Positions 2,164 through 40,423 of a DNA stretch of 40,423 nt are shown one piece after another. A program made the position numbers and the translations under genes. Position 1 is the stretch's first letter; each line of letters opens with the position of its first letter. The DNA is from a virus. The stretch covers positions 1-40,423 of the IMG/VR virus record IMGVR_UViG_3300036785_000578. One strand, given 5' to 3'. A model generated the notes under the pieces. It saw only the letters and a list, made by a program, of their open reading frames with translations, was not told where the DNA came from and did not search any database.

Positions 2164-2204
2164 ACCTGGTCACAACCATAGCCAACGTCAAAGGGGGAAG
2201 CGTG

Positions 2205-2867
2205 ATGATAACCATCGGCAACTGCAAAGGGGGCTGCGGCAAAACAACCCTGGCCGTCAATCTCGCGATCGCCTTGTCTATGTCGGGCCACGATTCGGAT
2301 GTGCTTCTGATCGATGGTGACGAACAAGGTACAGCTCTGGCTTTCACAGAGCTTCGCTCCAAGCGCCGGCCGGCCGGACCTGGTTATACCGCGGTGGCGC
2401 TCCACGGCGCCGCTATTCGCACGCAGGGGCGCCAGCTCGGGCGTGTCTATCCCTACATCGTTGTCGACGTGGGCGGCCGTGATTCGGGCTCTCTGCGGGC
2501 CGCGCTCACCATTTCTAACCTGGTCCTGGTACCGGCGGCGCCGCGGTCATTCGATTTATGGGGCGCGGATCAAACCGCGAATCTCATTCAAGAGGCGCGC
2601 GAAATCAACGCGGATCTGCGCGCGATCGCGGTTTTGAATGGCGCGGATCCCGCCGGCCGCGACAATGACGAAGCCCTGGCCGCGCTCGGGGACCTGGCCG
2701 GGCTCGAAGTGGCGCCTTGTCGCATCGGCCGGCGCAAAGCCTTCCCTGATGCGGCCGCGGAAGGGTACAGCGTGCTTGAGTATCGCGATAGCAGCGGGCT
2801 CAAGGCGCGCCAGGAATTCACGCAGTTATTTACTTTCCTCTTTCCCGAAAAGGAGCTGTCTCTATGA
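2205..2867 (+). CDS. parA: ParA-family partition ATPase
   Basis: 220 aa, a short ParA without an N-terminal HTH (type Ib-like). The deviant Walker A motif KGGCGKTT is at residues 8-15 with its signature lysine (K8). LLIDGDEQGT (34-43) is the Walker A' region, and IVVDVGGRD (85-93) the Walker B region. Such ATPases bind DNA non-specifically when ATP-loaded and move a partner-centromere complex, keeping low-copy replicons in dividing cells. The ATG at 2205 is preferred over the adjacent GTG (2202) because GGGGGAAG lies at better spacing. The stop overlaps the RHH gene in an ATGA junction. A ParA in a virus without an integrase supports a plasmid-like prophage state. Confidence 0.88.
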   Translation: MITIGNCKGGCGKTTLAVNLAIALSMSGHDSDVLLIDGDEQGTALAFTELRSKRRPAGPGYTAVALHGAAIRTQGRQLGRVYPYIVVDVGGRDSGSLRAALTISNLVLVPAAPRSFDLWGADQTANLIQEAREINADLRAIAVLNGADPAGRDNDEALAALGDLAGLEVAPCRIGRRKAFPDAAAEGYSVLEYRDSSGLKARQEFTQLFTFLFPEKELSL

Positions 2868-3097
2868 CTATCGCGCGCAATCCGAAAAAGGACGTCGACG
2901 CTGCCCGCTTCATCCGCGGCGCCCGCAAGACAGACGGCGCCGGCGCCAGGCGCAAGCTGGTGCCTGTCTGGGTCAATCTCGATCAAGAGCTGCTGGACCG
3001 CGTGAATGAGATGGCCAAAGCCATGGGCCTGAACCGTTCCGCTTTCATCGTCAACGCAGTAGCGGAAAAGCTGCGCCAGTTGGAGCAAAAACAATGA
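2864..3097 (+). CDS. ribbon-helix-helix protein, probable ParA partner
   Basis: 77 aa. A basic, probably disordered N-terminus (residues 1-30) leads into a ribbon-helix-helix core: strand KLVPVWVNL, helix QELLDRVNEMAKAMG, then helix NRSAFIVNAVAEKLRQLEQ. RHH dimers insert a beta-ribbon into short DNA repeats. In ParA-RHH modules (ParG, omega type) the RHH protein is the centromere-binding partner and represses promoters, while its flexible N-terminus contacts ParA. The 4-nt overlap with parA argues for balanced co-expression. It is the leading candidate to bind the 11-bp-spaced arrays; that link is inference. Confidence 0.8.
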   Translation: MTIARNPKKDVDAARFIRGARKTDGAGARRKLVPVWVNLDQELLDRVNEMAKAMGLNRSAFIVNAVAEKLRQLEQKQ

Positions 3098-3757: not shown

Positions 3758-3778
3758 AGGAGTCCAACCCTCCCGGCA

Positions 3779-4387
3779 ATGACAAATCTAGCACAGATCG
3801 CCCGCGGTTCCGCAATAGATTCCTCCAAACTCCATCCCACAACTGCGGCGCTCCTGGCTGCCGTCATTGATTGCAAGCTCACCGGCCTGCATGATCCGGC
3901 TATGGGCAAACTTGCAAAAATGATTCATCGCAAGGTCCGCTGCACCCAGATGCACAAGAAAGCCCTCATCGCCGGCGGGTATCTAGTCATCACGCGGCGC
4001 CGCATCGGTCCCAAGCTGTGTCTAACGGATGTGTATGAAGTACCGGGATTTATCCCACCCCCCCCTGGTGCAAAAATGCACCGAGATGCTTTAAGAACAA
4101 AGACAAAGACAAGGGCATCGTCTCCGCCGCCGGCTGCGACCAGGCCGGCGCCCGATATAAACCGGGTTTTGACCGTCAAACTGGCCGCGGCGGAGGAACA
4201 AATAGCGTTTTTGAGGGCCAGAATGCTGCGCGAGGGGGATCAAAGTAGGAAACAGATTGAATTTTTCCGCTCTTACATCCGCCGCGGAGAGCACCAGGCT
4301 AACGGGCGCCTGTGGGCGTGGGCGAAGATCGTAGAACAGCAGCGTATGCGGCAAAGGGCGTGTGTCGGGATGCCGTTAACCCGGTGA
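3779..4387 (+). CDS. putative winged-helix replication or regulatory protein
   Basis: 202 aa. Residues about 18-90 look like a winged helix: TAALLAAVIDCKL, then helix KLAKMIHRKVRCTQMHKKALIAGGYLVITRRR as recognition helix and wing, then DVYEVPGF. That order resembles the N-terminal domains of phage replication initiators. A proline-rich linker with PPPP leads to a C-terminal coiled-coil region (residues 135-190) rich in charged residues. The only good ribosome site is 16 nt upstream behind a strong hairpin. The gene converges on the XRE gene. Replication initiation is the favoured guess; a transcription factor is possible. Confidence 0.5.
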   Translation: MTNLAQIARGSAIDSSKLHPTTAALLAAVIDCKLTGLHDPAMGKLAKMIHRKVRCTQMHKKALIAGGYLVITRRRIGPKLCLTDVYEVPGFIPPPPGAKMHRDALRTKTKTRASSPPPAATRPAPDINRVLTVKLAAAEEQIAFLRARMLREGDQSRKQIEFFRSYIRRGEHQANGRLWAWAKIVEQQRMRQRACVGMPLTR

Positions 4388-4419: not shown

Positions 4420-4659
4420 TCACTTTTCGACAATCGAGGCCGATCTATCGAGCACATCCTTGCCGTGACTTCCCAGCGCCGTGCACATCCGCAGAAAGAC
4501 CATCACCGGGATGTCGTCTCCAGTTTCATAGCGGGCCACGGTGTTGCGGTGGATCCCCACCTTGGCGCCTAACCGTTCCTGGCTCCATCCCTTCGTTTCT
4601 CTCAGCCGGCGGATTTCGGCGCCAAGCTGGTTCTGGAATTCCTCTGCCGTGATCGTCAT
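4420..4659 (-). CDS. XRE-family helix-turn-helix regulator
   Basis: 79 aa, essentially one HTH_3 domain. Helix IRRLRETKGWSQERLGAKVGIHRNTVARYETGDDIP (residues 16-51) contains the classic SQERLG / HRNTVARYE turn. Such small Cro/CI-like proteins repress or modulate phage promoters. The ATG (4659) overlaps the TAA of the DnaC-like gene as TAATG, so it is the last, translationally coupled gene of the early leftward operon. That is an unusual place for a lysogeny repressor and better suits a Cro-like delayed regulator. The 18-bp palindrome over the leftward promoter near 7401 is a possible target. Confidence 0.85.
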   Translation of the reverse strand: MTITAEEFQNQLGAEIRRLRETKGWSQERLGAKVGIHRNTVARYETGDDIPVMVFLRMCTALGSHGKDVLDRSASIVEK

Positions 4660-5390
4660 TACTTCGTTCTCCAATCGGATCCGTGGATCTGTACCGCGGT
4701 GCACATCTGCTGCAGCCGGCTCCACATGCGCGCTCCAATGCGGTCGCCCAGCGTCTCCGGCCGCGCTGCCCTGGCATAAGGGTTTTCGTTCTGCACCTGG
4801 CCGGCGCCGGGCGCCAGGTTCTGAAAGTTGGTGGTCACAATCACCGCGGCCGTTTTGTTGTAAAGCCTGCTGATAAGCAACTCCACAGTGTCGAAAACCC
4901 AATCGGTCGGCCGCGAGGCGCCCAGCTCATCGATTACCACCAGGTCGGCCGAAAGAATCGGCTTCAGAATCTGCGTTTCCGTCTCCGTCGCATCGGGGCC
5001 ATAACTGGCCCGCAGCTTTTCAAGGAGTTCCGCCACGGTGATGAACTGCCCTTGGATCCCTTTGTCTTCGATCAGAGCGCGAACGATGCCGGCCGCCAGG
5101 TGGGTTTTGCCAGCTCCTACGTTGCCCGTAAACAGGATCCCGCGGCCGGCGCCAGGCAAAAAATCGGTGACATACCGGCGCGCGGCAGCCAGTGCCCAGC
5201 TTGTGTGTGCCTCCGGCGTGAAGTTTTCGAGCGCGCAACCCTGGAATTTGGGCGGAATTCCCGCTTTGGTGAGCCGCATTCTGGCCTGCTGGTCGATCTG
5301 GCAGGCGCATGGCCGGGATCCGCGCTCAGTTGGAATGAGCCCGACATCACGGCATATGTTGCAATTAAATGGCTGCTGTGCAAGCTCCAT
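4659..5390 (-). CDS. dnaC: DnaC/IstB-like AAA+ helicase loader
   Basis: 243 aa. An N-terminal zinc-finger-like segment (C10, C13, C28, C30) is followed by an AAA+ core: Walker A GNVGAGKT (89-96), Walker B LVVIDELG (150-157) and sensor 1 VTTNF (185-189). DnaC-type loaders place the replicative helicase on origin DNA; no helicase is visible here, so the host DnaB is presumably recruited. The ATG at 5390 is chosen because AGGA lies upstream at workable spacing. A longer frame opens at a TTG (5438) without a good ribosome site. About 100 bp separate it from the upstream gene, the largest gap in this operon. Confidence 0.83.
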   Translation of the reverse strand: MELAQQPFNCNICRDVGLIPTERGSRPCACQIDQQARMRLTKAGIPPKFQGCALENFTPEAHTSWALAAARRYVTDFLPGAGRGILFTGNVGAGKTHLAAGIVRALIEDKGIQGQFITVAELLEKLRASYGPDATETETQILKPILSADLVVIDELGASRPTDWVFDTVELLISRLYNKTAAVIVTTNFQNLAPGAGQVQNENPYARAARPETLGDRIGARMWSRLQQMCTAVQIHGSDWRTK

Positions 5391-5487
5391 AAGCCCGTCC
5401 TGACCTTCCTGGGGGTTTGGTGGTAGGGGTATAGCCAAAAATGCCGCCGGCGCGTCCTAGGGCCGTCTGCGGGCCGGCAACGGGCAT

Positions 5488-35962: not shown

Positions 35963-36559
35963 TCAGCCGGCGGTGAATTTCTGTACGTTGATGGTGGTGG
36001 GCGTGCCAGATGCGCCGCCGGTCGAGGTGATGCTGAGTGAGAATGTGACCACGGGATTGGCTAGGTTGCTTATGCCGCTGGGCACATTCGTAATCGCAAT
36101 CTCGGGATCGAGAACATTGTTGATTGTGCCTCCGCATTTGCCCTGCAGCTTGCCGCTCACTGAGTCATAGATCAGTTGGGCACGGATCCACCAGGGCGCC
36201 GTGGTGGTGTTCTGAGTGACCGCAGCGGCGGTTTTATGCAGCAGGCTGCCGGCGACCACGGTTGCACTCGCGCCCACATAGAGCCCCAGCGCGATGGTGC
36301 CCGCGGCTCTGGTGGTGATGTAGCCGGACGCAATGACATCGAAGACGGTCTGTTCGAGCGCCGTAAAGGGACCGAGCGCCGTAGTAAGCGCGCCGGCGGG
36401 GTTCGATGGGCTAAGGATGATGCTTTCCGTGGCCACGGTGATGTTTTGCGTGGCCGGTAGCGCGGAAGGTGTTGCAAGCTGCGTACTTAGGGGCGGCATA
36501 GTTACTGAATTGGCCGCGGGGCTCACAGGCCCATTTGGTCGATCCCAAAGAGATGGCAT
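35963..36559 (-). CDS. decoration- or fibre-like structural protein
   Basis: 198 aa from the ATG at 36559 (AAGGAG upstream); a longer frame to 36610 lacks a site. Beta-rich: QTVFDVIASGYITTRAAGTIALGLYVGASATVVAGSLLHKTAAAVTQN ... WWIRAQLIYDSVSGKLQGKCGGTINN ... NPVVTFSLSITSTGG. The fold impression matches jelly-roll or head-fibre proteins and resembles the 209-aa protein at 25739-26368. It is the first gene of the long late operon as seen here. Probably a virion surface protein. Confidence 0.5.
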   Translation of the reverse strand: MPSLWDRPNGPVSPAANSVTMPPLSTQLATPSALPATQNITVATESIILSPSNPAGALTTALGPFTALEQTVFDVIASGYITTRAAGTIALGLYVGASATVVAGSLLHKTAAAVTQNTTTAPWWIRAQLIYDSVSGKLQGKCGGTINNVLDPEIAITNVPSGISNLANPVVTFSLSITSTGGASGTPTTINVQKFTAG

Positions 36560-36675
36560 AACCTTCGTTCTCCTTTGGCGGCGGATCCGCAAATGTCCAG
36601 TAGAGAACAAGATTCCGCCTTTTAAGTCATTCGTGCAAGAGGTTTGCTTCGGGGCAGAGAATGAAAAGCGAAAGT

Positions 36676-36713
36676 TGCTTCAAGCACCCTGCTTCAAGCA
36701 CCTGCTTCAAGCA
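36676..36713. repeat. three copies of the palindrome TGCTTCAAGCA
   Basis: Copies at 36676-36686, 36690-36700 and 36703-36713, with starts 14 and 13 bp apart, in the gap between the divergent genes starting at 36559 (leftward) and 36749 (rightward). A single copy lies at 36933-36943. The 11-mer is an odd palindrome with only its centre base unmatched. Related TGCTCCAAGCA copies are at 39134-39565. Candidate operator cluster for a small DNA-binding protein. Confidence 0.65.
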
Positions 36714-36748
36714 GAAAGGGGCATCGTATCTTTCAGGAGGGCCGTCTT

Positions 36749-36925
36749 ATGCCACTGGGAATTCTTTTCTGGACCATCTATGTGATCGCCGTGATCTTCG
36801 GCGTCTGGGTCAACTATGAGCCCGCGCAGCCGCTTTGGGCTCGCCGTGCCGGCGCCTACTTGGTCCTATGGATCCTTCTCGGAATAGTTGGATGGGAAGT
36901 GTTTGGCCCTGTCGTCAGGCGATAG
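36749..36925 (+). CDS. small two-helix membrane protein
   Basis: 58 aa, read directly from the sequence: LGILFWTIYVIAVIFGVWV and YLVLWILLGIVGWEVFG form two membrane segments with a basic and charged connection (NYEPAQPLWARRAG) and a basic end (VVRR). A strong AGGAGG precedes the ATG. It is the only rightward gene between leftward blocks and follows the TGCTTCAAGCA cluster, so it may be regulated by it. Size and topology suit a holin-like or superinfection membrane protein. Conserved look, function unproven. Confidence 0.6.
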   Translation: MPLGILFWTIYVIAVIFGVWVNYEPAQPLWARRAGAYLVLWILLGIVGWEVFGPVVRR

Positions 36926-36936
36926 TTCTCCCTGCT

Positions 36937-37161
36937 TCAAGCACTGGCGTTTCGCTGGCGGAATGCTGCGCATTTGCATTCATACTCGGGGAATCGATTG
37001 GAGATTACGAGCAGGGCCGGGCGCAGGGCTGCGTAGGATTCATCATCGGCCCGCGCCGCAGCTTCTGCCAGGTGCTTGAGAAAATCACCAGACCGATTAG
37101 GTTCATGGTGCAGGATGCCGAAGACCCACCCCAGCAGCTCATTGTCATTTTGCAGAATCAT
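36937..37161 (-). CDS. small hypothetical protein
   Basis: 74 aa: ILQNDNELLGWVFGILHHEPNRSGDFLKHLAEAAARADDESYAALRPALLVISNRFPEYECKCAAFRQRNASA. GGGGGAAAG precedes the ATG. Helical, with two cysteines. Its stop codon lies inside a TGCTTCAAGCA palindrome (36933-36943). Overlaps the upstream gene by 17 nt. Function unknown. Confidence 0.5.
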   Translation of the reverse strand: MILQNDNELLGWVFGILHHEPNRSGDFLKHLAEAAARADDESYAALRPALLVISNRFPEYECKCAAFRQRNASA

Positions 37162-37351
37162 CTTTCCCCCGATTGCGGAACCAGCTCTGAGCCATCATTT
37201 CAACTGACTCGCTTAGGGCCTCGTGGCGCGCTGTCAAGGCTTCGTGACGGGCGACCAGCGCCGCGATACGCTTGTCAAAAACTTCATCGCGCTGAGCTAA
37301 ACTTTCGAGAATTGCCTCGATGCGGTCCAAACGTTCATTCTTTTCGGTCAC
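37145..37351 (-). CDS. small coiled-coil protein
   Basis: 68 aa from GTG 37351. Nearly all heptad-like helix: NERLDRIEAILESLAQRDEVFDKRIAALVARHEALTARHEALSESVEMMAQSWF, followed by a basic end. ALxARHEAL is repeated (residues 31-37 and 38-45). Probably a self-associating helical protein. Two TGCTTCAAGCA palindromes lie just upstream (37364-37387). Function unknown. Confidence 0.55.
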   Translation of the reverse strand: MTEKNERLDRIEAILESLAQRDEVFDKRIAALVARHEALTARHEALSESVEMMAQSWFRNRGKDDSAK

Positions 37352-37363
37352 TATCTACCCCTG

Positions 37364-37387
37364 TGCTTCAAGCATCTGCTTCAAGCA
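37364..37387. repeat. two copies of the palindrome TGCTTCAAGCA
   Basis: Copies at 37364-37374 and 37377-37387, 13 bp apart, in the 29-bp gap between genes 37381-37671 and 37145-37351; the second copy overlaps the upstream stop. The same sequence occurs at 36676-36713 and 36933-36943. Confidence 0.6.
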
Positions 37388-37671
37388 GCTTTCAACTTTG
37401 GTTTAGGCCCGCGTTTCTTGCCTGCTTTGGGCAGACTCTTGCGCCAGGCGGCGAACAGCCGGCGTTCCTCGGGCGTGTTGGGACGGTTGCAGAATCGGCA
37501 GCGGGTCAGATCGCGCAGCCGGCGCCGTTCAAGATTGAGGACCTTGGCGTGCTCGGGTGTACAAGTTACAGACTTGCGCACCACGCGGTCGGCGGGGATC
37601 TGATCGCCGCAAATGAGGCAATGGAAATATTCAACTGGCGCGCGCCGGTCTGCGGCTTTCACATTCGGCAT
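37381..37671 (-). CDS. zinc-finger-like small protein
   Basis: 96 aa with two metal-binding-looking clusters: CLIC (18-21) with a following CTPEH (37-41), and CRFC (58-61). The C-terminus is lysine-rich (SLPKAGKKRGPKPKLKAA). A similar arrangement is found in small phage HNH-less zinc proteins, but no nuclease motif is seen. Probably nucleic-acid binding. Its stop overlaps a TGCTTCAAGCA palindrome. Confidence 0.55.
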   Translation of the reverse strand: MPNVKAADRRAPVEYFHCLICGDQIPADRVVRKSVTCTPEHAKVLNLERRRLRDLTRCRFCNRPNTPEERRLFAAWRKSLPKAGKKRGPKPKLKAA

Positions 37672-37672
37672 T

Positions 37673-37891
37673 TTAGGAACCTTCCCCGCTGTCCTGTCGG
37701 TGTTCGGCGTCGATTTCCTTCATCAATTCGAGATAAGCTCCGATGCTTATAAGCATCATGAGGCCACAATTTGGGCAGCTGATTTCGACTCCGCCGAAAG
37801 CAGCGGCAACCACTGGCGTATGCTTCTCGCAGAGTGGAGCCGGCATCTTCCCGTTAAGGGATTGGGGTGTTGGCAATTTTAGTTCTGTCAT
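37673..37891 (-). CDS. small zinc-binding protein
   Basis: 72 aa from the ATG at 37891, in an ATGA overlap with the upstream membrane gene; GGGGGA lies upstream. C21-E-K-H, then CPNC (38-41) in EISCPNCGLMMLISIGAYLELMKEID. A short acidic tail follows. Looks like a small zinc ribbon with a helical end. Function unknown. Confidence 0.55.
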   Translation of the reverse strand: MTELKLPTPQSLNGKMPAPLCEKHTPVVAAAFGGVEISCPNCGLMMLISIGAYLELMKEIDAEHRQDSGEGS

Positions 37892-38064
37892 TTTGAGTGA
37901 TCCCCCATCAATTCGTAGACTTTTCCGGTGAGCAGTTTCATGTCTGGTCGCAGCTCCCGAATATCCTCGCGCATTCCTGAAATCTGCACGAGGCTGATTA
38001 CAAGGCTGGTGAGAATCACGATGATGGGCAAGCCCACTGCAATCCAAAGTTGTAGGTTGGTCAA
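37888..38064 (-). CDS. small membrane protein with helical tail
   Basis: 58 aa, read directly from the sequence, starting at TTG 38064 inside a TTGA overlap with the RusA-like gene; GGAGGG lies 4-5 nt upstream. One membrane helix (LWIAVGLPIIVILTSLVISLV) precedes a charged helical tail (GMREDIRELRPDMKLLTGKVYELMGD). Ends in an ATGA junction with the next gene. It is likely a real, coupled micro-gene. Function unknown. Confidence 0.55.
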   Translation of the reverse strand: MTNLQLWIAVGLPIIVILTSLVISLVQISGMREDIRELRPDMKLLTGKVYELMGDHSK

Positions 38065-38591
38065 TTTCCCTCCAGTAGTTCAACAGTGATCTGGACATGC
38101 GCCGGCGCCCCATAGATCTTGTGGAGCTCAGCATCGACAACCTGCGCATCGTCTACCCAGAGAATGCCTGTCATTGCATCGGTTGTACTTCGAGCAAGTT
38201 TGTCGTAATCGGGTTTGACGATTGGGCGCGTTCTTGAAGCAGGCACCGATTTCGGCCGTTCGAATACGAAGGTGAGAGCTACGCGCACGGGGACCGCGGC
38301 CGCGGCGAATACTCCATGTATGCCGGCCGCGGCGCGCGCCTGGAGAGCAGCGAAGCCAACCTGGTTCCTGTAGCCGTGGGTACGCGGGTTGTCTGCTTTA
38401 AGCACGGTCACGGGCGTACCATCCGGCTTTGTGGTGCAGATCCCGCCCATGCTTCCCTGCGGGATCGGTTCGCATTCGACGGAGAAAGAAATTTCAGTTA
38501 CGCGGCTGGTAGTTTTGCCAGTTGCGCATTCCGCGGCTTCGACAAATGCTGTCCAAGCTCTGCGTTCTGCGGTGCGGTTCATGCGTGGCAT
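38061..38591 (-). CDS. rusA: RusA-like Holliday junction resolvase
   Basis: 176 aa. FSVECEPIPQGSMGG (about 36-50) opens the domain. The catalytic region reads VKPDYDKLARSTTDAMTGILWVDDAQVVDAELHKIYG (125-161), with acidic residues D128, D130 and D147/D148 in the RusA arrangement. RusA homodimers cut four-way junctions at specific dinucleotides. The gene is the first of the leftward block, divergent from the RHH gene at 38644. The N-terminal 30 residues are an extension; the ATG at 38591 or 38582 is equally possible. The genome also carries an endonuclease VII-type resolvase at 290-763. Confidence 0.85.
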   Translation of the reverse strand: MPRMNRTAERRAWTAFVEAAECATGKTTSRVTEISFSVECEPIPQGSMGGICTTKPDGTPVTVLKADNPRTHGYRNQVGFAALQARAAAGIHGVFAAAAVPVRVALTFVFERPKSVPASRTRPIVKPDYDKLARSTTDAMTGILWVDDAQVVDAELHKIYGAPAHVQITVELLEGN

Positions 38592-38643
38592 CGGGATTTT
38601 TCTCTTGACTTAGGCAATATATATTATGTATCAGTGTATGGCT
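38592..38643. promoter_or_regulatory. divergent promoter region between resolvase and RHH gene
   Basis: This AT-rich 52 bp separates the RusA-like gene (leftward) from the RHH gene (rightward). Rightward: TTGACT (38605-38610) with TATCAG (38629-38634) at 18 nt, then 9 nt to the ATG at 38644, a weak but similar layout to the two early promoters. Leftward: TTGCCA followed by 18 nt and TAATAT on the minus strand. The -10 boxes are not strong by eye; opposing promoters would overlap here. Confidence 0.4.
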
Positions 38644-38886
38644 ATGGCAAAAAAGAAGCGCCCGCGTAGTACCGCATCTGGTCATCCGGCCCCTGAAAAT
38701 CGTCACAGTGTCCTAATCCATTTCAGCGCCGAAGAACATGAGCGGATTCGAATTGCTGCAGCTCGGCGCGGTTGTGGTTTCAATTTATTCGTCCGTTTAG
38801 CCTCTTCCCAGGCTGCGAAAAACGCAATGGAGATCCCGCCCGATAAAGTTCTCGGCCGGGATGTTGTACTTGAAGCACAAGCGTAG
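38644..38886 (+). CDS. second ribbon-helix-helix (RHH) type DNA-binding protein
   Basis: 80 aa from the ATG at 38644; in-frame ATGs also lie at 38626 and 38638, without ribosome sites. Basic N-terminus (KKKRPRSTASGHPAPENR), then strand HSVLIHFS, helix EEHERIRIAAARRG, and helix GFNLFVRLASSQAAKN: a ribbon-helix-helix arrangement. Such proteins bind short repeats and repress transcription. It sits midway between the two TGCTYCAAGCA clusters, so it is a candidate to bind them. A terminator follows at 38897. An antitoxin-like role is possible, but no toxin gene is seen beside it. Confidence 0.6.
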   Translation: MAKKKRPRSTASGHPAPENRHSVLIHFSAEEHERIRIAAARRGCGFNLFVRLASSQAAKNAMEIPPDKVLGRDVVLEAQA

Positions 38887-38896
38887 GATCCCCACT

Positions 38897-38930
38897 CCCG
38901 CCGGGCTCAACCTGGCGGGTTTGCTGCTTT
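38897..38930 (+). terminator. rho-independent terminator after the RHH gene
   Basis: CCCGCCGGG (38897-38905) pairs with CCTGGCGGG (38911-38919) around CTCAA, with one G-U pair, and is followed by TTTGCTGCTTT. The stem begins 11 bp after the RHH stop. The tail is only partly U-rich, but stem and loop are strong. Confidence 0.65.
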
Positions 38931-39070
38931 ATGCAGTTTCGTAGGATCCAACCTGGTCAATAGGACTGGGCCTCTCGTGTGCTTTGAGCGTCCGCGGCCG
39001 CCAGGGCTCTGAAAAAATGCCTGGCGTTCCAAAAATCCTCTTCTAAAGACCCCATTTTCCTTGCTGCTTT

Positions 39071-39103
39071 GATACTCCAAGCATTTCCTATGCTCGGAGT
39101 ATC
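39071..39103. promoter_or_regulatory. inverted repeat upstream of the DUF1376 gene
   Basis: GATACTCCAAGCA (39071-39083) and TGCTCGGAGTATC (39091-39103) are complementary at 12 of 13 positions around TTTCCTA. The arms contain diverged copies of the TGCTCCAAGCA element. The site lies about 65-95 bp before the ATG at 39166. It may be an operator, part of a replication site, or a hairpin terminator for upstream transcripts; no T-tract follows. Confidence 0.55.
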
Positions 39104-39133
39104 ACCAGCCTGGTTATTCCTTTGGGCGGCGGA

Positions 39134-39565
39134 TGCTCCAAGCATTCGCCATTGTGGAGACTTCCATGTCTGGCGAACAATCTTCCGAGTTGAAAATTAA
39201 CCTCTGGATGCCTTTTGATATTGGCCCTTTCCTACAAGACACAGCTCACCTAAGTACAGAAGAAATAGGGGCTTACACTCTCCTGCTTCTTTATTATTGG
39301 GCGCACGGCCCGCTTCTAAACGATCCCAAACGGTTGCAGAATATCGCGAAAATGCCGCTCGATGCTTGGAGCATTGCTTATGCATCGCTAAGCATGTTCT
39401 TTTTTGTGGGCTCTGATGGGCTCCTGCACCAGAAGGGCGCGGATCGCCGGCGGGCTAAATGGCTTGATAAACGATTGAAAGCACGGGAGAAAGCGATAAA
39501 AGCTGCTAATGCAAGGTGGAGCAAAAGGAAAGCGAAACCAGATTCTCCAAGTAATGCTCCAAGCA
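39134..39565. repeat. TGCTCCAAGCA repeats in and before the replication gene
   Basis: Exact copies at 39134-39144, 39363-39373 (reverse complement, TGCTTGGAGCA) and 39555-39565, with degenerate copies at 39073, 39091, 39543 and 39590 (TGCTTGAGCA). They differ from the 36.7-37.4 kb palindromes at one base. The first copy lies 21 bp before the replication gene's ATG; the others lie inside the gene. Origins within the initiator gene, as in lambda O, are a known pattern. Confidence 0.6.
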
Positions 39566-40239
39566 TGCCCGAAGCAATGCATGAAGAAATGCTTGAGCAA
39601 TGCCCTACATCGGTAGTACTAAGTACAAAAGCCTCCCTTACCCCAACCCCATCCCTCAAAACGAGGGATGGGGACGGATCGAAAAACTCTCCTACTCGCC
39701 GTAGATCTCCGCGGCAGCTCGGGACTTCGCCGCGGCAACTCGGCATCTCTAAAAGGAAAATAAAAGCGAAACAGGCTCAAACGGCCCGCCAGGGCGTCGG
39801 AACCCCCCTTCGCGATGGAAACGCACACGCGAGTCCTGAAAAACGCAGCACGGGGCCTGGCGAGGGCGGGGCGGAGGCTTTTAATTCTGGATCTGAACTG
39901 AAAAATGCAGGGTCGGCGGCGGAGAATCCTGAAAGCGTAAATCGAGCGAAGTTTTCAGGTGAGTCGAAAACTGAGGTTTTGCGATTCTGGGCCGGGGCTG
40001 GCGTCGAGGAATTCGAGTGCCCATGGTCAGATCTGGAAGATCGCGCTTTGAAGGATTTTGTTAATGCGAATCCGAAAGTGGATTTGTTGCGCTTCAAGCA
40101 GCTCCTGCGCAACCGCGCGGCCTCGGAGGGAATCAATCGGGCGGATCCGCCTCATAAATGGCTGCGCAGCCTGGTGAAATATGCCGATGGTCCGCTCGAT
40201 CGCTACGGCAAACCACTGCGGCCGGCGCGTATTCACTGA
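39166..40239 (+). CDS. DUF1376/YdaU-type phage replication protein
   Basis: 357 aa from the ATG at 39166, chosen for GGAG at 7 nt; the frame is open to an ATG at 39133 inside a TGCTCCAAGCA repeat. Residues about 11-105 (LWMPFDIGPFLQDTAHLSTEEIGAYTLLLLYYWAHGPLLNDPKRLQNIAKMPLDAWSIAYASLSMFF ... RRRAKWLDKRLKAREKAIKAANARWSKRKA) match the DUF1376 family found in phage replication regions. A long, basic, disordered middle leads to a C-terminal helical domain (EFECPWSDLEDRALKDFVNANPKVDLLRFKQLLRNR ... HKWLRSLVKYADGPLDRYGKP). It probably helps start replication together with the DnaC-like loader. Confidence 0.75.
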   Translation: MSGEQSSELKINLWMPFDIGPFLQDTAHLSTEEIGAYTLLLLYYWAHGPLLNDPKRLQNIAKMPLDAWSIAYASLSMFFFVGSDGLLHQKGADRRRAKWLDKRLKAREKAIKAANARWSKRKAKPDSPSNAPSMPEAMHEEMLEQCPTSVVLSTKASLTPTPSLKTRDGDGSKNSPTRRRSPRQLGTSPRQLGISKRKIKAKQAQTARQGVGTPLRDGNAHASPEKRSTGPGEGGAEAFNSGSELKNAGSAAENPESVNRAKFSGESKTEVLRFWAGAGVEEFECPWSDLEDRALKDFVNANPKVDLLRFKQLLRNRAASEGINRADPPHKWLRSLVKYADGPLDRYGKPLRPARIH

Positions 40240-40423
40240 TCCTGTAATTAAATTGCAATGGTAGCAAATTAAATAGAGAAGCCGCGGCCGCCCCTGCGCC
40301 CGGTGCGCCTCCTAACTAAAACAAAGTGAAACAACGAATGCAATCAAGACAGGGGAAGTGGACAGGGATGCCATGTATATGCTATTTACCAAAGTAAAAC
40401 TATTTTACTTAAAATAATTTTAC
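40240..40423. promoter_or_regulatory. right-end AT-rich non-coding region
   Basis: No gene is seen. It contains an imperfect inverted repeat related to 219-250 (40245-40274), TAAAACAAAGTGAAAC (40317-40332) complementary to 74-89, and a perfect 8-bp inverted repeat AAGTAAAA, CTA, TTTTACTT at 40392-40410. The last 50 bp are very AT-rich, as at origins or strong control regions. Confidence 0.55.

Follow-up and report, generated by a model that had tools for sequence, protein, structure and literature searches.

TGCT-N3-AGCA palindromes in a probable phage-plasmid genome as candidate binding sites of its own DUF1376 replication initiator

Palindromes of the form TGCT-N3-AGCA lie in two clusters around a small ribbon-helix-helix (RHH) gene and a DUF1376 replication gene in the viral genome IMGVR_UViG_3300036785_000578, and they raise the question of which protein reads them. 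The window, which spans this entire IMG/VR virus record (40,423 bp), contains six exact copies of TGCTTCAAGCA (at 36676, 36690, 36703, 36933, 37364, and 37377) and three of the variant TGCTCCAAGCA, one base different (39134 and 39555 on the plus strand and 39363 on the minus strand), all at the positions named in the original prediction. A motif count over the whole genome showed that their density is unequal, with no exact copy of either variant in the 40,423-bp record beyond 36.6 to 39.6 kb. With up to one mismatch allowed, there were 23 matches (each of the six palindromic TGCTTCAAGCA sites being taken twice, once per strand) versus 1.92 expected from shuffles, the maximum among 100 shuffles being 5, and the motif in reversed letter order did not occur in the record. 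We think it probable, judging from the sequences, that the palindromes are binding sites of the phage's own DUF1376 initiator, that some of them lie inside its gene, and that the variant found there reflects a cassette swap.

The gene (39166 to 40239, plus strand; the longest open reading frame [ORF] starts at 39133) was annotated as a DUF1376 replication initiator from Pfam and PHROG matches and from the layout of an AlphaFold2 model. Its product matched Pfam DUF1376 (PF07120) with 58.7 bits against a cut-off of 30.1 (E=7.6e-16) and the PHROG family “primosomal protein” (E=2.2e-21); no match to the lambda O family was found for it in the Pfam and PHROG searches, and the whole protein used as a direct query retrieved no relatives. 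The AlphaFold2 model, built with eight sequences, has helices at residues 31 to 47, 54 to 61, and 65 to 78, and a wing that extends to residue 88 and is followed by a long helix (residues 90 to 123), with a pLDDT of about 90 over residues 20 to 120. Mainly on this helix/wing layout, the initiator is predicted to be a winged-helix protein.

Several copies had been placed inside this gene by the original prediction; counted from the ATG at 39166, two exact copies of TGCTCCAAGCA lie within it. The in-domain site (39363 to 39373, minus strand) is at +197 from the start and is written in the codons GAT GCT TGG AGC ATT (DAWSI), and the linker site (39555 to 39565, plus strand) is at +389 (NAPSM). 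The third copy (39134 to 39144, plus strand) is upstream, 32 bp before the likely start. Degenerate copies, predicted near 39073 to 39600, were found as an inverted pair upstream of the initiator, TGATACTCCAAGCAT and ATGCTCGGAGTATCA (39070 to 39104), and as copies that follow the linker site to about 39605.

The placement of these sites is conserved. We compared nine initiator genes, those of the window, G422, G424, G425, L003, L007, L010, L024, and L009, and all nine have one TGCT-N3-AGCA site that falls in the predicted winged helix (+173 to +212) and another in the linker (+332 to +440); six phages (the window, G422, G424, G425, L003, and L007) also have a site upstream, at −32 to −64. Because L009, L010, and L024, which do not belong to the clade, came from a motif search, the presence of the motif in them is not independent evidence, but its placement is. 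The peptides encoded at the in-gene sites vary (DAWSI, SASSS, GASST, MLEAC, and MLQAM), and reading frames 0, 1, and 2 are all used across the nine genes; since the peptides and sometimes the frames differ, it is the DNA that is conserved. At the domain site, the four DAWS-type genes (those of the window, G422, G424, and G425) use exactly the same codons, GAT GCT TGG AGC ATT, although the N-terminal domains of the last three share only 43 to 61% identity with that of the window. G422 and G424 have three further sites downstream of the initiator, spaced 68 to 80 bp apart. The GC content is about 43 to 48% around most in-gene sites versus 57% for the genome.

Relatives of the window were found through terminase, motif, and ParA searches. 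By terminase, L003 (92% identity), L001 (89%), and L002 (79%) are the closest, L004 and L005 being more distant, and motif scans yielded L007 and others. The same palindrome occurs as arrays with a 12- to 14-bp period in L001, L003, and L007, and there are no copies in L002, L004, and L005. In whole-record counts, the copies in L001 and L003 are restricted to the first 4 kb, which is the replication end.

Comparison of the window with L003 revealed an exchanged cassette of 867 bp (38999 to 39865) over which the two have no blastn similarity, whereas the flanks are alike (87.3% identity over 38061 to 38998 and 85.1% over 39866 to 40407). The cassette contains the DUF1376 N-terminal domain, the linker, and every TGCTCCAAGCA site, and all of the TGCTTCAAGCA arrays are outside it. 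In a tree of N-terminal domains, the window groups with G425, G422, and G424 (support 89/94), which have TGCTCCAAGCA in the gene, and L003 groups with L007 (100/99), both carrying TGCTTCAAGCA; in the ParA tree, however, the window groups with L003 (100/100). Given this conflict of groupings and the swap, the one-base difference follows the initiator type. The window thus appears, quite probably, to have acquired a different initiator gene together with its matching sites by a cassette swap. The original prediction had suggested that the one-base difference could give graded affinity. As an explanation of that difference, graded affinity is not supported, the exchange of the cassette being a simpler account, but it may be a consequence. 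In L003, L007, and G422, sites outside the initiator gene are identical to those inside it.

The TGCTTCAAGCA copies of the window are distributed over three places. A three-copy intergenic array (36676 to 36713, with copies at 36676, 36690, and 36703 and a period of 13 to 14 bp) is flanked by the start of a leftward operon, whose first gene is 35963 to 36610 with a likely start at about 36559, and by a small rightward membrane-protein ORF (36749 to 36925); it is kept in L001 (three exact copies and one with a single mismatch) and in L003 (three exact copies). A lone copy (36933 to 36943) contains the TGA stop codon of a minus-strand ORF (36937 to 37161), and in a pair at 37364 and 37377 (37364 to 37387), the second copy contains the TGA of another (37381 to 37671), so that two copies do overlap stop codons, at 36937 and 37381, as had been noted; neither the lone copy nor the pair has a counterpart at the homologous place or junction in L001. 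The statement that other copies flank promoters has a positional basis, but consensus promoter scans gave 5 hits versus 2.4 expected, little above chance. Close by, at 37742 to 37757, a perfect 16-bp palindrome, GATGCTTATAAGCATC, lies within a small leftward gene and may be due to chance.

From these arrangements, we infer initiator binding, origin activity, autoregulation, and a satellite function as follows. The DUF1376 gene would encode a winged-helix replication initiator that acts like lambda O, and the TGCT-N3-AGCA palindromes would serve as its iterons. The site upstream of the start codon would probably mediate autoregulation, and the sites in the winged-helix and linker coding sequence would make the initiator gene the carrier of its own origin. 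The original prediction's association of the sites with the replication gene holds, and the 39.1- to 39.6-kb region is a good origin candidate. Copies outside the gene would be satellite sites of a probable ParA-RHH phage-plasmid, with a role in titration, origin pairing, or the control of promoters. Recombination at 38,999 to 39,865 would have brought the initiator and origin of the TGCTCCAAGCA variant into the window, and the intergenic arrays of the window would retain the TGCTTCAAGCA variant of an L003-type initiator.

Arrays within DUF1376 genes are found beyond this clade. Six other DUF1376 loci with clear arrays, including ydaU of the Escherichia coli Rac prophage, have a palindrome of their own inside the gene only, within the 5 to 20 kb covered at each, and the motifs in such loci include AACG-NN-CGTT, TGCG-NN-CGCA, TGTT-NN-AACA, and TCCC-NN-GGGA. 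Tandem ATGCTTCAAGCA arrays were also seen in unrelated viruses and in a single bacterial genome; they fall within the linker of proteins that resemble either DUF1376 or other phage initiators and are translated as NASSNASS. Motif pairs in bacterial genomes were few and scattered, except in one Methylophilaceae DUF1376 gene. The related phage G423 has no TGCT-N3-AGCA site; it encodes a third type of DUF1376-like gene with TACGGTCGTA in the gene and more copies beyond it. G423 also carries a second palindrome family, TATG-N5-CATA, in 11-bp tandem steps that adjoin TACGGTCGTA sites (3771 to 3867 and 7102 to 7170 of L092, which is G423 36000 to 43879), solely outside the DUF1376-like gene. A general 10-mer repeat test, which 20 of 29 DUF1376 genes passed, was dropped as unspecific since 5 of 21 control segments passed it too.

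Several observations weigh against assigning the sites to the initiator. The intergenic TGCTTCAAGCA copies of the window do not match its current in-gene variant, TGCTCCAAGCA. L001 has an initiator of another, non-DUF1376 family without such a site, yet it retains three exact array copies, in DNA that is 81% identical overall to the window. Foldseek searches of the initiator model against the PDB returned nothing significant (best E=0.11), the top matches, below significance, being mostly MarR-type winged-helix regulators, and no clear AT-rich unwinding block was seen beside the in-gene sites. The common codons at the domain site of the DAWS-type genes could in part reflect shared ancestry. 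Among 29 PF07120 genes sampled more widely and without selection from a single phylum (that of the Methylophilaceae genome G007), 5 passed a strict in-gene palindrome test against synonymous-shuffle expectation, most with a motif of their own, compared with 1 of 21 window gene segments used as controls; in-gene arrays therefore recur but may not be family-wide.

The mismatched arrays of the window and the array of L001 require a relic, cross-recognition, or a second binder. The intact arrays could be explained by swaps in L001 and the window being recent, by service to another factor, or by cross-recognition between initiator types. In our reading, the intergenic TGCTTCAAGCA arrays are additional sites that belonged to the earlier type of initiator, and they may now be relics, weaker sites, or sites of another factor. 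A further proposal, which we offer tentatively and consider rather doubtful, is that initiator and origin travel between phage-plasmids as one specificity cassette and that the leftover satellites keep a second specificity and are still read either by RHH1, the RHH protein encoded beside ParA, or by a host protein. If this were true, replication and partition or copy control would read near-identical palindromes one base apart.

The window genome is probably a phage-plasmid, as suggested by the presence of a ParA-RHH partition pair. A ParA-type partition ATPase (2202 to 2867, plus strand) matched Pfam AAA_31/CbiA and PHROG 164, “ParA-like partition protein” (E=8.9e-40), and scored 149.5 bits against NCBIfam NF041546, under the cut-off of 180. 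Directly downstream and overlapping parA is the gene for the small protein RHH1 (2864 to 3097, plus strand; Pfam RHH_1, E=9e-7), a candidate centromere-binding partner; this is the arrangement of type Ib-like ParA-RHH partition, and RHH1 is kept beside ParA in L079, L080, L081, L083, L084, L085, and L087. ParA-like ATPases from plasmids of Sphingobium and Roseomonas share about 60% identity with this ParA, a likeness that suggests a phage-plasmid lifestyle; no relatives of RHH1 were found in plasmid records. Relatives of ParA led to further phages of about 43 kb, among them G422, G424, and G425 with TGCTCCAAGCA-type sites. The gene set also includes a terminase, a weak major-head match, the initiator, and a DnaC/IstB-like ATPase (4659 to 5438, minus strand), which by profile match is a candidate helicase loader, and no integrase was matched among the window proteins scanned, a subset of the ORFs. 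Just downstream of the DnaC-like gene, an XRE-type repressor-like ORF (4423 to 4662, minus strand) is consistent with a temperate phage.

Beyond the initiator, the contigs of the window, L001, and L003 all stop within about 16 bp of one another; the DNA there is AT-rich and has the palindrome AAGTAAAATAGTTTTACTT. The two ends of the window (40240 to 40423 and 1 to 300), read inward, share GTTTCACTTTGTTTTA and a TTGCAA-centered AT-rich motif. These shared ends may be genuine genome termini or a telomere-like hairpin, or they may stem from an assembly break.

An alternative hypothesis, which we regard as unlikely, is that the TGCTTCAAGCA arrays are dispersed centromere sites of RHH1, the ParA partner, comparable to the four inverted repeat (IR) centromere sites of N15 (PMC7205306), and that the in-gene initiator sites are merely similar. 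ParA and RHH1 are present in the window, L001, L003, and G422, all with sites outside the initiator gene, and absent from the motif-free L002 and from unrelated DUF1376 viruses with in-gene sites only, but all carriers belong to one clade, and this co-occurrence is confounded with ancestry. L001 keeps its array beside a non-DUF1376 initiator, and the second motif of G423, which indicates that the clade can carry separate dispersed sites, keeps the partition hypothesis alive. In L003, L007, and G422, however, the identity of outside and in-gene sites means that one binder suffices, and no TGCT-N3-AGCA copy is found at the par operon, the nearest being separated from it by more than 30 kb in the linear record, or by about 3 kb if the genome is circular. 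The inferred RHH1 contacts of G423 are those of G422 (P-L-N), yet G423 lacks TGCT-N3-AGCA altogether, which favors the initiator as the binder.

The neighboring RHH protein, RHH2, which had been proposed as a binder, was rejected on its inferred contact residues and on the logic of the cassette, and we hold it very improbable that the palindromes are its operators. Its gene does lie between the two clusters, as originally described, although the ORF is 38626 to 38886 (plus strand, with 38644 as an alternative start). It is flanked by RusA and the initiator, and its match to Pfam RHH_10 (E=4.3e-5) falls short of the curated cut-off; an RHH gene adjoins the initiator in the window, L003, L001, L007, and G422, and L003 has TGCTATTAGCA at the start of RHH2. 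When three contact residues of the RHH strand were assigned by alignment to the Arc repressor rule, the window and L003, which have the intergenic motif in common, were predicted to use S-L-H and N-V-R, respectively, and L007 and G422 were both predicted to use S-R-R, though their motif variants differ. The RHH2 promoter of the window has no site, and the cassette swap alters the motif variant while RHH2 stays. Even less credible is the idea that the in-gene copies simply follow from repeats in the linker peptide (NASSNASS, DAPSI) and are not DNA sites under selection: most in-gene copies share a reading frame and similar peptides, but the same site is also present before the gene and in noncoding DNA after it, its in-gene copies occur in both orientations (DAWSI versus NAPSM) and in further frames (MLEAC, MLQAM), and none of 100 synonymous shuffles reached the in-gene arrays of either the window or L003. 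We give the least credence of all to RNA or stop-codon elements acting in translation coupling or termination. Such a role would fit the TGA at the repeat center in the leftward sense, which serves as the stop codon of two genes in the window and one in L003, and the single orientation of the intergenic copies; against it, some copies are in noncoding DNA or antisense to the initiator gene, one copy in L007 is read through in frame, and there is neither an Rfam match nor a T-run, a lone copy giving only a 4-bp stem.

The proposed initiator-origin arrangement resembles that of lambda, whose origin lies in the middle of gene O and has four iterons (PMC7466680). In both, dyad-symmetric repeats lie within the initiator gene after the DNA-binding domain, as the window linker site at +389 does, and the window has a helicase-loader candidate elsewhere in its genome. 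Unlike lambda, the window has a DUF1376 initiator with no O homology by Pfam, 11-bp sites spaced 12 to 230 bp apart instead of four close 18-bp iterons, and sites upstream and far outside the gene, without a clear AT-rich region. The Rac prophage of E. coli carries oriJ. Its DUF1376 gene, ydaU, likewise has its own in-gene array (TGTT-NN-AACA) and is followed by ydaV, an ATP-binding protein gene, but the motif is another one, and no copies lie outside the gene in the 5 kb examined. The in-gene repeats of ydaU (3972 to 4078 of L034), TGTTCAAACA and AAGCAGATGTTCAA, are spaced 33, 33, and 12 bp apart and are a candidate location of oriJ.

Phage-plasmid P1 and iteron plasmids have a RepA initiator, incA control iterons, and 19-bp direct iterons. 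They share with the window an initiator, origin iterons with a second iteron set elsewhere, and ParA partition, whereas the putative origin iterons of the window are 11-bp palindromes inside the gene. The centromere of the phage-plasmid N15 consists of SopB sites IR1-IR4 (PMC7205306). N15 is like the window in having separate palindromic sites and a ParA-type system, but SopB is a ParB-type protein, whereas the window pairs ParA with an RHH protein and its sites are, on the evidence, more likely bound by the initiator. The stoperators of mycobacteriophage L5 are asymmetric sites spread over the genome; they, too, are short protein-binding sites dispersed near gene ends, whereas those of the window are palindromic and confined to about 3 kb.

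One further element lies inside the swapped cassette, a perfect inverted repeat with 11-bp arms, CCCCATCCCTC-AAAAC-GAGGGATGGGG (39647 to 39673), which forms the 27-bp hairpin CCCCATCCCTCAAAACGAGGGATGGGG and whose core is identical to lambda ori iteron 1 at 18 of 18 bases. This likeness was noticed after the fact and may be due to chance; a 21-base extension of the hairpin was found in no other viral contig, and no DNA similarity to phage records was found around it.

Pfam still lists DUF1376 as of “unknown function” despite its recurrence in prophages, and of five papers found to mention it in the literature collection searched, none names it in the title or abstract. We propose that DUF1376 proteins may be lambda-O-like initiators that recognize palindromes written in their own genes, in which case their specificity would be readable from the initiator gene itself. 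Compared with L003, the window would amount to a swap experiment done by nature, an 867-bp cassette having carried the initiator along with its sites. This points to an uncharacterized set of phage-plasmid origins and to the question of what the unmatched satellite sites do.

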